DNA of 64,000 nt from positions 1 through 64,000 of IMG/VR virus record IMGVR_UViG_3300032214_000867; one strand, given 5' to 3'. The position numbers and the translations under genes are program-made. Source of the stretch: a virus. A model generated the notes under the pieces. That model had not been told where the DNA came from. It was given only the letters and a program-made list of their open reading frames with translations, and did not search any database. Position 1 is the first letter of the stretch. The number at the start of each line of letters is the position of its first letter. This document shows, in pieces, positions 13,825 to 56,449 of this stretch.

Positions 13825-16118
13825 GCAACGGAACGAAAGTCGTTAAAAGAGATGGTAAAACTGAATCATTGGATCTTAATAAACTCCATGTTATGGTGGA
13901 GGAATCCTGCAAAGACCTAGCAGGTGTATCAGCATCTCAAGTAGAGATGAAATCAGGCATTCAATTTTATGATGGCATCACTACAGCAGAGATTCAGGAG
14001 ATTCTGATTCGTTCTGCTTCTGACCTGATTGATCTTGATCACCCTAACTATCAATTCGTCGCTGCTCGCCTGCTTCTGTTCGCTCTCCGCAAGCAGTTGT
14101 TTGGTCGTATGCACGAATGCCCTACAGTTAAGCAACACGTGCTTCGCGCAGTTGGTAGAGGTGTCTATGATGCAGAAATTCTTGACCTGTATACTGATGA
14201 AGAATTTGATAAACTTGAGTCGTTTATTGATCATAGTCGTGACTATCTGTTTACTTACGCAGGTCTACGTCAAGTCGTTGATAAGTACCTCGTGCAAGAC
14301 AGAAGTTCTAACGAACTTTATGAAACGCCACAGTTTATGTACCTTTTGATCGCGGCGACAATCTTTTCCAAGTATCCTAAAGAAACACGTTTAGACTACG
14401 TTAGGAAGTACTATGATGCAATCTCAAAGCACAAAATCAACATCCCAACACCAATCATGGCAGGGGTGCGAACGCCACTTAGACAATATGCTAGTTGTGT
14501 TCTTGTTGATGTTGATGACACCCTCGATAGCATCTTTAGTTCTGATATGGCTATCGGCAGATATGTTGCACAAAGGGCGGGAATTGGTATCAACGCAGGT
14601 CGTATCAGGGGCATCAACAGTAAGATACGAGGCGGCGAGGTTCAGCACACGGGTGTTGTACCGTTCCTCAAGAAGTTTGAAGCGACTGTCAGATGCTGTA
14701 CTCAAAATGGCATACGAGGTGGATCAGCTACGGTACACTTCCCCATCTGGCACCAAGAGATAGAAGATATTCTAGTATTAAAAAATAACAAAGGAACTGA
14801 AGATAATCGTGTTCGTAAGTTAGACTACAGTATCCAAATCTCTAAACTGTTCTATGAACGATTCATCCGCAACGAAGAAGTTTCACTCTTTTCTCCCCAC
14901 GCAGTTCCTGGTCTGTATGATGCTTTTGGGACTGATCGATTTGACGATTTGTATGTGGCTTACGAACGAGATCAGTCTATTCCAAGAAAAACTATCGCTG
15001 CTCAAGAACTCTTTCTGGACCTCCTGAAAGAACGTGCAGAAACTGGTCGTATTTACATCATGAATATTGACCATTGCAACTCTCACTCTTCCTTTATGGA
15101 CAAAGTTGAGATGAGTAATTTGTGTCAGGAAATCACTCTTCCTACCAAACCCATTCAACATATTGATGATCCTAATGGTGAAATTGCTTTGTGCATTCTT
15201 TCTGCTATTAATGTTGGCAAAATCAGGGATCTTGAAGATCTTCAAGTTCTTTGCGATCTTGCTGTTAGGAGTCTTGATGAACTCATTGATTTTCAAGGAT
15301 ATCCCGTCAGAGCAGCAGAAATCGCCACCAGAGCACGTCGTTCGCTTGGAGTAGGTTTTATTGGACTTGCACATTATCTTGCCAAGCACGGTGAAAATTA
15401 TGATGATCCTGGTGCTTGGAAATTGGTGCATGATTTAACAGAAGCGTTTCAATATTATTTAATTGATGCAACCGTAAATCTTGCTAAAGAAAAAGGTGCC
15501 TGTGAGTATTCCGACAGAACCAAATATGGTAATGGTATTCTTCCTATAGATACATACAAAAAGGACGTTGATGAAATAGTTCCAAATGAGCTTAAGTATG
15601 ATTGGGAGCATCTTAGAGAACAGGTACTCAAATATGGGGTACGGAACTCAACATTGTCCGCACAGATGCCATCGGAGAGCAGTTCCGTTGTGTCAAATGC
15701 CACAAATGGAATCGAACCACCTAGAGGATACCTGTCCGTTAAGAAGTCGAAAAAAGGTCCGCTCAAGCAGATTGTTCCCCAGTATCAAACACTTAAGAAC
15801 AATTATACGCTTCTGTGGGATATGCCTAGCAATCGTGGTTATATCAATATTGTTGCAGTTATGCAAAAATTCTTCGATCAAGCGATTTCTGGAAACTGGT
15901 CCTATAATCCAGAAAATTACCCAGATAATGAAGTTCCTACTTCAGTAATGGCACAGGACCTTTTAACTACATATAAGTACGGCTGGAAAACCAGCTATTA
16001 TCAAAATACTTATGACCATAAGACTGATGAGGTTGAAGAAACCAAACAGTCACTTGAAGATTTAATTTCTCAACTAGAACAAGCAGAGGAGGAAGATTGT
16101 GAGTCTTGTAAGATTTAA
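13821..16118 (+). CDS. nrdA: Ribonucleotide reductase class Ia, large subunit
   Basis: 765 residues, similar to T4 NrdA (754). Reduces ribonucleoside diphosphates with NrdB. An ATP-cone-like region is at the N-terminus (VVKRDGKTESLDLNKLHVMVEE). The active-site cysteines are visible in YASCVLVDVDD, SNLCQEITLPT and ALCILSAINVG, and the C-terminal redox pair in CESCKI. The Y-Y pair near the C-terminus (TSYYQNTYD) fits the radical transfer path. The start overlaps gene 61 (ATGA). Supplies dNTPs for phage DNA. Confidence 0.97.
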   Translation: MSNGTKVVKRDGKTESLDLNKLHVMVEESCKDLAGVSASQVEMKSGIQFYDGITTAEIQEILIRSASDLIDLDHPNYQFVAARLLLFALRKQLFGRMHECPTVKQHVLRAVGRGVYDAEILDLYTDEEFDKLESFIDHSRDYLFTYAGLRQVVDKYLVQDRSSNELYETPQFMYLLIAATIFSKYPKETRLDYVRKYYDAISKHKINIPTPIMAGVRTPLRQYASCVLVDVDDTLDSIFSSDMAIGRYVAQRAGIGINAGRIRGINSKIRGGEVQHTGVVPFLKKFEATVRCCTQNGIRGGSATVHFPIWHQEIEDILVLKNNKGTEDNRVRKLDYSIQISKLFYERFIRNEEVSLFSPHAVPGLYDAFGTDRFDDLYVAYERDQSIPRKTIAAQELFLDLLKERAETGRIYIMNIDHCNSHSSFMDKVEMSNLCQEITLPTKPIQHIDDPNGEIALCILSAINVGKIRDLEDLQVLCDLAVRSLDELIDFQGYPVRAAEIATRARRSLGVGFIGLAHYLAKHGENYDDPGAWKLVHDLTEAFQYYLIDATVNLAKEKGACEYSDRTKYGNGILPIDTYKKDVDEIVPNELKYDWEHLREQVLKYGVRNSTLSAQMPSESSSVVSNATNGIEPPRGYLSVKKSKKGPLKQIVPQYQTLKNNYTLLWDMPSNRGYINIVAVMQKFFDQAISGNWSYNPENYPDNEVPTSVMAQDLLTTYKYGWKTSYYQNTYDHKTDEVEETKQSLEDLISQLEQAEEEDCESCKI

Positions 16119-22822: not shown

Positions 22823-22854
22823 TAAGTGCTGGGGGAGAAATCTCCCACTTTTGC
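22823..22854 (+). terminator. Possible terminator or processing hairpin before tRNA-Gly
   Basis: AGTG...GGGAGAAATCTCCC...CACT stem-loop followed by only TTTT; immediately precedes tRNA-Gly, so it may instead aid tRNA processing. Confidence 0.4.
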
Positions 22855-22923
22855 GAATGTGGTGTAGCGGTAACATCCCATCCTTCCAAGTTGGTGTCAC
22901 GGGTTCGATCCCCGTCATTCGCT
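22853..22923 (+). tRNA. tRNA-Gly (anticodon UCC)
   Basis: Acceptor GCGAATG/CATTCGC, anticodon loop CTTCCAA on stem CCATC/GTTGG (one T-T mismatch), T arm ACGGG-TTCGATC-CCCGT, discriminator T. Confidence 0.88.
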
Positions 22924-22940: not shown

Positions 22941-22969
22941 TTGACATAAGACTCAAGATGCTCTAAGAT
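22941..22969 (+). promoter_or_regulatory. Sigma-70 promoter for the porin gene
   Basis: TTGACA (22941), 17-base spacer, TAAGAT (22964). A late motif CTAAATA lies further on at 23001-23007. The leader of about 90 bases contains an AAGATTT/AAATCTT inverted repeat (23012-23037). Confidence 0.7.
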
Positions 22970-23065
22970 ACTCTCAATCTTAAGATTTGCTTAAGACTTC
23001 CTAAATAACGAAGATTTGCTTTGTTGTAAATCTTTATATTGTCCTATAGTACATAAAACAATTTT

Positions 23066-24535
23066 ATGAAACTCAAACAACTGATGCTTGCACCTGTTGC
23101 TCTGGGAATGGTTGCTCCTGTTGCTGCGAATGCCGCAGATCTGAATATGGCAGCAGTCAACCAATATGCTTCCTCTGAGCAGGTTACAAGTATTAATCAA
23201 CTCTCTGATGTGCAACCAACCGATTGGGCATATCAGGCACTCAGCAACCTTGTAGAGCGTTATGGTTGCGTTGCTGGTTATCCTAATGGCACTTATGGTG
23301 GTGGTAAGGCAATGACCCGATATGAGGCAGCAGCACTTCTTAATGCTTGCCTTGATCGCGTAACCGAACAAACTGATGAACTGAAGCGTCTTGCCGATGA
23401 GTTCCGTAATGAACTTACTGTAATTCAAGGTTCTGTTACTAAACTGGAAGCACAAGTTGGACAACTTGAAGCAACTCAGTTCTCCACCACAACTAAACTG
23501 CGTGGTGAAGCAAACTTCGTGATCGGTAATGTTGATAATTACAAGACCAAAGGTGGTGATGTAACTCATGCAGCATTCAATTATGATCTGCGTCTGAACC
23601 TGGATACTTCATTCACTGGTAAGGATCTACTCAAAACCCGTCTGCGTTCTGCTAACTTCAGTAGTGATCCTTTCGGTTCTAGTTCTTCTCTGTTTAAACT
23701 TGATAAAGCTGACAACACTTCTAGTGAAGTTGGTAACAACGTAGTTATCGACCGTCTGTACTATCAGTTCCCTGCTTTCAATAACAAAGCAACTCTGACT
23801 GCTGGTGCTGCTGTTCGCAACACTGAGATTGCCTGGGTGCCTTCTGCTTATAAGTCTGGTATTCTTGACTTCTTTGCCGTTGCTGGTACTCCTGGTGTTT
23901 ATAACAAGGCAACTGGTGCTGGTTTCGGTGTTCAGTATGGAAAGAAAGGTCTTGTTGCTGGTGTAAACTACGTTGCACAAGCAGGACAAGATAGTTCTAA
24001 GGGTGAGTTTGATGAGACTGGTGCTCTCAATACTCTTGCACAAATCGGTTATCGTGGTACTAACTGGGGTGCTGCATTTGGTTATCGTTATGGTACTGAA
24101 GGTACTCGTGTTCGTACTTATAACGGTCTTGATGGTTCTTCTGGTACTCTGGTTCCTGGTCAAACTTCCAACGGTTATGCTCTGAACGCATACTGGCAAC
24201 CTAAGAAGTCTGGTATTGTTCCTTCTGTCTCCGCAGGTTATGGTTGGAATACTGTGAGTGGTACTGCTAGTGCTGCTACAGATAGTCAGTCTTGGTTTGC
24301 TGGTTTGACTTGGGATGATGTGTTTATTGATGGTAACTCTGCTGGCGTTGCTATCGGACAGGCACCTACTGGTGAAGATCTTGAAAAGGCAACGATGCTT
24401 GAGATTTTCTACAAGTATCAAGTGTCTGATAACATCAGTGTCACTCCTGCTATTATCTACGGAAGTGATAACCAGCGCCTTGCTGATAACTCCTCTAACT
24501 GGGGTGGTGTAATTCAGACGACTTTCCGTTTCTGA
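23066..24535 (+). CDS. Cyanobacterial-type outer-membrane porin (SLH-OprB, iron-uptake porin family)
   Basis: 489 residues. Signal peptide ending ANAADL (cleavage about residue 23). An SLH domain follows: QLSDVQPTDWAYQALSNLVERYGCVAGYPNGTYGG.KAMTRYEAAALLNACL. A short coiled coil (DELKRLADEFRNELTVIQGSVTKLEAQV) leads to a beta-barrel ending in ..VIQTTFRF, with the terminal F expected of outer-membrane barrels. This is the architecture of major marine picocyanobacterial porins (SomA/SomB type). Codons are more GC-rich than its neighbours, suggesting host origin. It has its own promoter and terminator. Effect on the infected cell (nutrient uptake or receptor change) is unknown. Confidence 0.93.
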   Translation: MKLKQLMLAPVALGMVAPVAANAADLNMAAVNQYASSEQVTSINQLSDVQPTDWAYQALSNLVERYGCVAGYPNGTYGGGKAMTRYEAAALLNACLDRVTEQTDELKRLADEFRNELTVIQGSVTKLEAQVGQLEATQFSTTTKLRGEANFVIGNVDNYKTKGGDVTHAAFNYDLRLNLDTSFTGKDLLKTRLRSANFSSDPFGSSSSLFKLDKADNTSSEVGNNVVIDRLYYQFPAFNNKATLTAGAAVRNTEIAWVPSAYKSGILDFFAVAGTPGVYNKATGAGFGVQYGKKGLVAGVNYVAQAGQDSSKGEFDETGALNTLAQIGYRGTNWGAAFGYRYGTEGTRVRTYNGLDGSSGTLVPGQTSNGYALNAYWQPKKSGIVPSVSAGYGWNTVSGTASAATDSQSWFAGLTWDDVFIDGNSAGVAIGQAPTGEDLEKATMLEIFYKYQVSDNISVTPAIIYGSDNQRLADNSSNWGGVIQTTFRF

Positions 24536-24545
24536 TAGTTTAATA

Positions 24546-24570
24546 GGGGGTTGACAAAACCCCCTTTTTG
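24546..24570 (+). terminator. Intrinsic terminator after the porin gene
   Basis: GGGGGTT-GACAA-AACCCCC stem-loop followed by TTTTTG. Confidence 0.9.
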
Positions 24571-24579
24571 TTGTATTCT
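24551..24579 (+). promoter_or_regulatory. Sigma-70 promoter embedded in terminator
   Basis: TTGACA (24551-24556) in the hairpin, 17-base spacer, TATTCT (24574-24579). Drives the small gene at 24601 and tRNA-Val. Confidence 0.8.
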
Positions 24580-24773: not shown

Positions 24774-24845
24774 GGGCGATTAACTCAGCGGTAGAGTGGC
24801 TGCCTTACAAGCAGTAAGTCATTGGTTCGAATCCGATATTGCCCA
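24774..24845 (+). tRNA. tRNA-Val (anticodon UAC)
   Basis: Acceptor GGGCGAT/ATTGCCC, D stem ACTC/GAGT, anticodon stem GCTGC/GCAGT with loop CTTACAA, T arm ATTGG-TTCGAAT-CCGAT, discriminator A. Confidence 0.93.
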
Positions 24846-24848
24846 CTT

Positions 24849-24872: not shown

Positions 24873-25379
24873 ATGGAAACACTATTTAAACTATTAAGTG
24901 ATGCTCAAGCATCACTTTTTGTGTTATTTCATAAAACTTGGATCTATCACTGGAATGTTGTTGGGCAAGATTTTCAGCAACTTCATACTCTTTTTGGTGG
25001 TCAATATGAAACCATGTTTGAAGAGATAGATAGATTATCAGAACATATGAGATACTTAAATGTAAAACCTTTGAGTAGTTTAAATCGTGTTCTTGAGGTT
25101 TCTAAAATCAAAGAGGCATCAAGTTCTGCAAATGCTGAAGGTATGATTTCTGATCTTCTTCAATCAAATATTGATTTCTGTAATATGATGGGTAAAATAT
25201 CTGAAGAAGCAGAAGATCAAAAATCATATGCTACCGCAAATCTAGTTCAAGATTTGATGGAGTCTCATGGCAAGTTTGTTTGGATGCTTCGTGCATTTTC
25301 GGACTCTGGAACAAAAAAAGTTCAAGAAGAAGTAGAAGAAGTTATTGAAGATCAAATAGAAGAAACAATAGAAGAATAA
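24873..25379 (+). CDS. Dps-like ferritin-family protein
   Basis: 168 residues starting METLFKLLSDAQ. The four-helix pattern contains LFHKTWIYHWNVVG, FQQLHTLF and YETMFEEIDRLSEHMR. These supply H26, H38, D53 and E57, matching the inter-subunit ferroxidase ligands of Dps. Dps proteins oxidise and store iron and protect DNA. A highly acidic tail (about 150-168) replaces the basic DNA-binding tail of some Dps proteins, so DNA binding is doubtful. It follows a late promoter and may buffer iron during photosystem damage (inference). Confidence 0.85.
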   Translation: METLFKLLSDAQASLFVLFHKTWIYHWNVVGQDFQQLHTLFGGQYETMFEEIDRLSEHMRYLNVKPLSSLNRVLEVSKIKEASSSANAEGMISDLLQSNIDFCNMMGKISEEAEDQKSYATANLVQDLMESHGKFVWMLRAFSDSGTKKVQEEVEEVIEDQIEETIEE

Positions 25380-55200: not shown

Positions 55201-55366
55201 CATCAACAACGTTAAGGAATGTAACACTTTCTAATGTTTTGTAACTCCCATTAACCGAGACCTATGGGGAGTATAAATTACGTCTCTCATACCCACAATG
55301 GAGGGTGTTGTGGGGAATACCGTAACCATCCAGACCCCCCTGGACTTTTACTTACCCTTTTAACAA
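55201..55366 (+). promoter_or_regulatory. Structured psbA leader with pseudoknot potential
   Basis: Helix CTCCCAT/ATGGGGAG (55245/55264) has a loop whose GAGAC (55257-55261) can pair with GTCTC (55282-55286), an H-type pseudoknot. CCCACAA/TTGTGGG (55292/55308) and TCCAG/CTGGA (55329/55340) follow. No clear Shine-Dalgarno before the ATG. The PhotoRC-II RNA motif is known upstream of psbA in marine phages and may be this; not tested. Confidence 0.6.
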
Positions 55367-56449
55367 ATGACTGCTTCAATCGCTTCACGCCGTTCTGGCG
55401 AAAACCTCTGGGAACAATTTTGCCAGTGGGTAACTTCAACCGATAACCGCCTTTATGTTGGTTGGTTCGGTGTTCTGATGATTCCAACGCTGCTTGCTGC
55501 TGCTACTTGTTTCATCATCGCATTCATCGGTGCTCCCCCTGTGGACATTGATGGTATTCGTGAACCCGTTGCTGGTTCACTCATGTACGGAAACAACATC
55601 ATCTCTGGTGCTGTTGTTCCTTCTAGCAATGCTATCGGTCTACACTTCTACCCCATCTGGGAAGCTGCTTCTCTCGATGAGTGGCTATATAATGGTGGAC
55701 CGTTCCAACTGGTCGTATTCCACTTTCTGATTGGTATCTATGCCTACATGGGTCGCGAATGGGAACTTTCTTACCGACTTGGTATGCGTCCTTGGATTTG
55801 TGTTGCCTACTCTGCACCCGTTGCTGCTGCTAGTGCAGTGTTCCTGGTCTATCCCTTCGGTCAAGGATCCTTCTCTGATGCGATGCCTCTGGGGATTTCA
55901 GGAACTTTCAACTACATGCTTGTTTTCCAGGCGGAACACAACATTCTTATGCACCCTTTCCATATGCTGGGAGTTGCTGGTGTCTTCGGTGGTTCTCTTT
56001 TCTCTGCTATGCACGGATCTCTTGTCACCTCTAGTCTTGTACGTGAGACGACAGAAAATGAGTCACAGAACTACGGATACAAGTTTGGACAAGAAGAAGA
56101 GACCTACAACATTGTAGCTGCTCATGGTTATTTTGGTCGCCTTATTTTCCAATATGCTTCCTTCAATAACTCCCGTAGTCTTCACTTCTTCCTTGCTGCT
56201 TGGCCTGTAGTTGGCATCTGGTTCACCGCTCTTGGTGTTTCTACGATGGCTTTTAACTTGAATGGTTTCAACTTTAACCAGTCAATTCAAGATAGTCAGG
56301 GTCATGTAATTAATACATGGGCAGACATTCTGAATCGTGGTGGTCTGGGTATGGAAGTTATGCATGAACGTAACGCCCACAATTTTCCGTTGGATCTTGC
56401 TGCTGCTGAGTCAACTCCCGTTGCTCTCACCGCTCCTACCATCGGTTGA
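55367..56449 (+). CDS. psbA: Photosystem II reaction-centre protein D1
   Basis: 360 residues, complete. Five membrane helices; [24 protein letters not shown], the iron/quinone region [21 protein letters not shown] and [20 protein letters not shown] are intact, and the C-terminal processing site [12 protein letters not shown] is present. Phage D1 replaces photodamaged host D1 during infection. MGREWELSY has Glu where low-light forms have Gln (residue 130 in standard numbering, 131 here), the high-light D1 type. Strongly host-like codons and GC. Confidence 0.99.

Follow-up and report, generated by a model that had tools for sequence, protein, structure and literature searches.

A cyanophage-borne SLH-OprB porin as a candidate phosphate-uptake gene with a phage-specific RNA leader

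A complete cyanobacterial-type outer-membrane porin gene is carried by a T4-like cyanophage contig. The DNA analysed was a stretch of 64,000 nucleotides, positions 1 to 64,000 of the IMG/VR record IMGVR_UViG_3300032214_000867, hereafter the window. Comparative sequence analysis suggests that the phage porin is probably a PhoE-like porin for phosphate uptake. A wider proposal is made tentatively: a T4-like cyanophage lineage may have acquired, in a single event long ago, a two-step phosphate cassette of an anion-selective porin and PstS, with the porin expressed through a phage-specific structured RNA leader. The following features surround and constitute the gene.

22853..22923, plus strand: upstream tRNA-Gly(tcc), the closest tRNA on that side in 87 of 221 loci
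22941..22969, plus strand: sigma-70-type promoter TTGACA-17-TAAGAT (consensus scan)
22978..22996, plus strand: leader hairpin 1, TCTTAAG-ATTTG-CTTAAGA (fold of 22976-23068; conserved in related leaders)
23010..23035, plus strand: leader hairpin 2 (fold; a hairpin at the equivalent place covaries in the other leader class, 9 of 10 pairs)
23040..23052, plus strand: 13-nt box TGTCCTATAGTAC, directly before the start codon
23066..24535, plus strand: porin coding sequence, 489 aa, with signal peptide, SLH domain, coiled coil, 16-strand barrel and C-terminal Phe
23066..23134, plus strand: signal peptide, residues 1-23 (by eye from the sequence)
23204..23332, plus strand: SLH domain, residues 47-89 (Pfam)
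23483..24532, plus strand: beta-barrel, residues 140-489 (AlphaFold2 model and Foldseek)
24545..24565, plus strand: intrinsic terminator stem-loop (consensus scan)
24774..24846, plus strand: downstream tRNA-Val(tac), the closest tRNA on that side in 55 of 213 loci
24876..25379, plus strand: ferritin-like/Dps-like gene (Pfam Ferritin 1.7e-21; below the Dps equivalog cut-offs)

The porin and the phages that carry it

The open reading frame is intact, from an ATG start to a C-terminus ending in ...TTFRF. Pfam detected an SLH domain at residues 47-89 (1.9e-7) and OprB at residues 103-473 (4.2e-10), both above cut-off. SLH domains bind the cell wall. NCBIfam model NF033921 (por_somb) matched residues 40-489 (5.9e-82) with a score of 275.8 bits against a cut-off of 100, and the match spans the whole model (1-485). 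The AlphaFold2 model has a mean pLDDT of 69.6, with residues 1-81 unreliable, and consists of a long helix (85-137) followed by 16 beta strands between 142 and 488. The best Foldseek structures were OprB (4gey), OmpF and the SLH porin OmpM1. OmpM1 of Veillonella (8bym) and OprB have the fold of the window porin, with 12-13% identity across it, and for OmpM1 there is a sequence match in the SLH and coil part as well. A23 of the signal peptide is invariant in 70 aligned porins. SLH domain, 16-strand OprB barrel and terminal Phe place the protein in the SLH-OprB (Som/por_somb) family. A PHROGs search with the protein yielded no convincing family. The preliminary description of the gene as a complete cyanobacterial-type outer-membrane porin is borne out by frame, domains and model. 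A working-type porin is the best explanation of these properties, and its SLH domain and coiled coil are predicted to lie on the periplasmic side.

The window contig is a T4-like cyanophage. Its 64,819-base record carries phage DNA polymerase, a DnaB-like helicase, primase and psbA, together with ribonucleotide reductase genes recognised by their resemblance to phage records. Over 16-30 kb, the annotated phage most similar to it is Synechococcus phage S-SRM01 (43% covered, 78.9% identity), which was isolated from a reservoir. Its porin (MW015081.1, QPX48248.1) is 70% identical to the window porin over the whole length. The surroundings agree as well: both genes are flanked by tRNA-Gly and tRNA-Val and followed by a Dps-like gene, the window porin being part of a tRNA cluster. 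The S-SRM01 record annotates the protein as 'porin', a word absent from the main text of the phage paper (PMC8557907).

The gene is not a one-off. The search in metagenomic contigs that had been suggested retrieved 415 relatives from IMG/VR with the window porin as query, 400 with the S-SRM01 porin and 239 with a host porin; the best 80 of each scan were taken as the phage loci examined. Among 50,697 phage records, S-SRM01 (two records) alone has a full-length porin, at 70%. S-CREM1 and S-PM2 match the window porin in the SLH part only. Their proteins (locus L083, 7935-8813, 292 aa; locus L084, 5932-6771, 279 aa) show SLH and coiled-coil similarity, have no match in the barrel part and are annotated 'iron uptake porin' and 'putative S-layer protein'. 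Plasmid relatives reach about 36% identity among the matches listed (10 of 29); the tally has one further record in the 60-80% band.

The porin frame is open in all 234 sources on the viral side, which comprise the window, S-SRM01 and the fetched loci and include some contigs found twice; 161 are distinct by porin and upstream sequence. They hold 229 complete porin copies, which represent 153 different proteins, all with terminal Phe. Protein lengths in this set are shaped by a start rule biased towards 490 aa and do not enter the argument. The dN/dS of phage porins has a median of 0.27 and a maximum of 0.38 (150 random pairs, 64 representatives), which indicates that they are kept under purifying selection. 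A chance reading frame or a pseudogene is ruled out by the open frames and this ratio. The porin is present in 31 of 31 large phage records, and one of them (G328) has two. These records are taken as phage genomes because T4 gp23 shares the contig with the porin in 17 of the 31. On one phage contig, IMGVR_UViG_3300044631_000905, two complete copies of the porin gene are separated by about 15 kb, and pstS is absent.

Promoter and structured leader

The promoter and terminator claimed for the gene were both found (22941-22969 and 24545-24565), at an expectation by chance of 6.2 promoters and 2.2 terminators in consensus scans of the porin region. A comparable promoter is seen by eye at the same place in related loci. 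A promoter-like site (24551-24579) directed at the downstream region has its -35 element inside the terminator stem-loop.

Between promoter and start codon lies a structured leader (22976-23052 in the window; 14921-15003 in a related locus, L082). Promoter, hairpin, TGTCSTWTAGWAC box and start codon form an arrangement common to many related loci. The fold of the window leader (22976-23068), which belongs to class B, gives two hairpins with a z of -3.77. Covariation was measured in class A, to which the S-SRM01 leader with its hairpin and box belongs, whereas the window leader is one of 40 in class B, of which 15 were aligned. Nine of ten stem pairs of the class-A hairpin are changed on both sides among 25 of the 26 class-A leaders (L275 was dropped as misaligned). 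Covariation occupies 24 cells compared with 6.4 in shuffles; none of 500 shuffles reaches 24, and slid controls are far lower. The Rfam scan of the leader gave no match.

The box consensus TGTCSTWTAGWAC occurs once each in 116 of 306 loci, always directly upstream of the porin, and none of the host loci among the 306 has it. Within the window, 16 matches with up to two mismatches compare with 7.8 expected, and the sole exact match is at 23040. A covarying 5' leader hairpin, in two classes, together with a 13-nt box is specific to phage porin genes. An in-frame leader peptide in the box was discarded, since both the reading frame relative to the porin and the stop codons differ between loci (by eye). 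As speculation, the leader could serve message stability or translational control. It may be used as a marker for related phages in metagenomes.

Host origin and linkage to pstS

In a tree of 101 porins (31 phage representatives and 70 host porins, with control porins from 8 of 20 control loci), the phage porins form one clade (bootstrap/SH-aLRT 100/100; 200 of 200 bootstrap trees). This clade is nested inside Cyanobiaceae host porins, in agreement with a quick tree. The phylogeny proposed as a check thus places the window porin inside cyanobacterial porins and not far from them. Relatives of the window porin were found in 287 of 300 sampled host genomes, the best with 62-63% identity; a second phage porin reached at most 67% in 400 genomes. 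Both samples were drawn from a larger family. The nearest host relatives belong to Cyanobiaceae with genomes of about 1.9-3.9 Mb.

Base composition bears out the more GC-rich codons attributed to the gene only in part. The porin has a GC content of 0.447 versus 0.347 for the window, but its GC3 of 0.304 falls within the range of nearby phage genes (0.15-0.37) and of phage porins (0.25-0.40), far from the 0.67-0.90 of five host porins. Codon usage therefore gives no sign of a recent acquisition. The host origin stands by the tree, yet it is neither recent nor private to this phage. The simplest reading is one old acquisition from a host, long kept, although a wider host sampling could break the single clade. 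Nested in the host tree, carried by phages and under purifying selection, the porin has the properties of a host-derived auxiliary metabolic gene. PstS of T4-like cyanophages, an auxiliary metabolic gene for phosphate acquisition, was likewise taken from hosts.

The host side was examined in 60 porin regions, 20 each in batch A (nearest to the phage), batch B and control paralogue batch C, some of them cut by contig ends. A pstS gene follows the porin on the same strand within about 500 bp in 10 of 20 regions of batch A, 5 of 20 of batch B and 0 of 20 of the control. All 15 pstS-linked host porins and all phage porins fall into one 62-row clade (100/100). Linked rows make up 15 of the 31 host rows inside this clade versus none of the 39 outside; the Fisher value of 4e-7 is a guide only, as tree rows are not independent. 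The window porin thus belongs to the pstS-linked porin clade of Cyanobiaceae. The linked host porins share its domain plan, and their porin-pstS order is that of its phage relatives, at identities of at most 63% to the window porin and 67% to another phage porin. The host group sister to the phage clade (8 rows, weak support of 91/39) has no pstS linkage. The preliminary description had compared the gene to the main porins of marine picocyanobacteria. This does not hold: it is most closely related to a single porin group, of which roughly half the members adjoin pstS, in Cyanobiaceae of about 1.9-3.9 Mb, and the best-matching annotated record is the reservoir phage.

The linkage recurs in phages. 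At least 1.3 kb of downstream sequence is available in 135 distinct phage loci. In 44 of them pstS follows the porin on the same strand, within 300 bp in 33 (median gap 146); for a representative, Pfam and TIGR00975 were used to verify that the gene is pstS. Among the large records, 14 of 31 have a pstS above cut-off and one more has a fragment (15), each about 1.5 kb or less downstream of the porin. No pstS is present in the 64.8-kb record of the window or in the complete S-SRM01 genome, so neither has pstS downstream of the porin. Where the window has its Dps-like gene, relatives carry pstS or other genes. Among the 115 phage loci that extend 3 kb beyond the porin, peroxiredoxin (45), Hli-like (44), Dps (42), PstS (41) and ferredoxin (26) genes were counted. 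Because Dps, peroxiredoxin and Hli-like genes are equally frequent, pstS is regarded as one member of a variable cargo region. An association of PstS and Dps in phages was not found (p 0.23). The porins of the window and a related locus (L002) are 98% identical, while the adjoining Dps-like proteins (24876-25379 in the window) share only 52%, which suggests that cargo genes are exchanged between phages.

In the PstS tree, where host labels are rough and at least one second copy is labelled as linked, 30 of the 32 phage representatives cluster (SH-aLRT 95), and six PstS of marine cyanophages lie outside this cluster. The other two (L252 and L236) fall with the host PstS L321 and L327. Marine cyanophage isolates differ from the porin phages in gene order also, since in the five annotated isolates examined (L367-L371) pstS is always immediately preceded by a DUF680 gene (T4-GC 241) and not by a porin.

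Pore chemistry and function

Four barrel residues, K214, K263, R330 and R348, are basic in nearly all phage porins, mostly basic in hosts of the clade and rarely in the other 39 hosts. Phage and clade porins have also lost a basic position (249) and gained an acidic one (148). The median net charge of the barrel is +7 in phage porins, -5 in linked and -4 in unlinked hosts of the clade and -12 in other hosts. The SLH and coil part, taken as a control region, differs little (-4, -4, -3.5 and -3 in the same order). The window barrel has a net charge of -1, below the phage median. By these residues, the phage pore would favour anions; the basic residues fit this but are not proof of it. Iron and phosphate had been named together as nutrients that might enter. 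Linkage to pstS in hosts and phages and the basic barrel residues favour phosphate over iron.

Regulation by phosphate was considered in the upstream regions. A Pho-box scan (three 8-mers, 11-nt spacing; p<=0.025, 40 shuffles each) gave no excess: it picked out none of the 15 linked host porins, none of the 8 near unlinked ones, none of the 19 controls and 4 of the 60 phage porins, with mean scores close to the shuffles. The CTTAAGA repeats in front of the porin are not regarded as a Pho box, as they form an inverted repeat downstream of the promoter and the scan was null. Pho-box prediction in phages is described as unreliable, and cyanophage pstS has been reported under host PhoBR control (PMC10976474).

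A precedent for the function comes from Prochlorococcus. PMM0709/phoE of Prochlorococcus MED4, an OprB-type porin, is reported to be strongly induced by phosphorus starvation (PMC5451487), and PhoE is more than 15-fold up in MIT9312 (PMC3349580). Porins near pstS in Prochlorococcus-size genomes were found at 7 of 30 loci and have about 30% identity. For this reason, the window porin is proposed to work like PhoE and not to be PhoE. During infection, the phage would make the porin and so add channels while host gene expression is shut down. The porin would sustain the supply of phosphate to the periplasm; uptake from there for phage DNA synthesis would fall to PstS, of phage or host, and to the host Pst transporter. 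It would act as an outer-membrane auxiliary metabolic gene for phosphate acquisition, in the manner of the starvation-induced PhoE of Prochlorococcus. The window lineage would have lost the adjacent pstS, or never had it, and has the Dps-like gene there instead.

Cyanophage phosphate genes known so far concern the periplasm (pstS) and alkaline phosphatase (phoA). If the two-step cassette is true, phage metabolic takeover extends to the permeability of the outer membrane. Phages that supply an outer-membrane channel would control the first step of nutrient entry as well as a surface where other phages meet the cell. The closest precedent is the OmpL that PII viral contigs encode beside amtB, again a virus-encoded porin beside a nutrient-uptake gene, described as a Bacteroidetes-type porin with nitrogen genes and thus unlike the cyanophage porin (PMC8115048). 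Searches on cyanophage- or phage-encoded porins, porin-pstS and viral porins, covering mainly non-subscription papers, found no paper describing the family. The presence of the porin in the isolate S-SRM01 makes the proposal directly testable.

It is unlikely, although the best of the alternatives, that the phage supplies an ordinary channel with an SLH tether and no substrate preference, which would maintain permeability and envelope while host synthesis stops. Such a general replacement would agree with the near-consensus sigma-70 promoter and with the frequent place of the porin in a cluster of genes for the upkeep of the photosynthetic cell (Hli-like, ferredoxin, peroxiredoxin and Dps). 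It does not account for the origin of the phage copies from the group with all pstS-linked host porins and not from other paralogues, nor for the clade-specific basic residues.

The porin might instead remodel the surface, as the preliminary description also considered, and displace or mask the receptor of competing phages. Superinfection exclusion by a porin has a precedent in the Lc/NmpC porins of lambdoid prophages. The phage barrels are somewhat shorter than those of other host porins (median 354 versus 387 aa), and one record has two porins. We consider this improbable: a surface decoy might be expected to diversify, in contrast to the strong conservation (dN/dS about 0.27), and the pstS linkage is left unexplained. 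We also know of no receptor for phages carrying this porin, which counts against remodelling.

Still less credence is given to a role in iron uptake like that of Slr1908, with the downstream Dps-like ferritin as a partner in handling iron. Slr1908 is reported as an Fe-selective porin under PhoB control (PMC11126600). The NCBIfam name of NF033921 is 'iron uptake porin', and a Dps-like gene is downstream in the window, in S-SRM01 and in 42 of 115 loci. However, the family name is not discriminating, as a control paralogue reaches the same score. Dps-like genes mostly lie at a greater distance from the porin (median 775 bp), and the added basic residues are more suited to anions than to cationic iron.

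An error of binning or assembly that placed host DNA in a viral contig, an idea to which the host-type family without convincing PHROG match might lend itself, can practically be dismissed in view of the same gene at 70% in the isolate genome S-SRM01, of gp23 on 17 of 31 porin contigs and of host identities that stay within 63% to the window porin (300 genomes) and 67% to the second phage porin (400).

Two further loci were observed in the window. A PhotoRC-II RNA (85.6 bits) lies directly upstream of psbA (55232-56449 together, psbA at 55367-56449), which we take to be a known cyanophage arrangement. A gene at 58992-60137 matches a tryptophan halogenase phage family (PHROG 2928, 1.6e-66) and is located near genes for a 6-phosphogluconate dehydrogenase and a Nol-like carbamoyltransferase.
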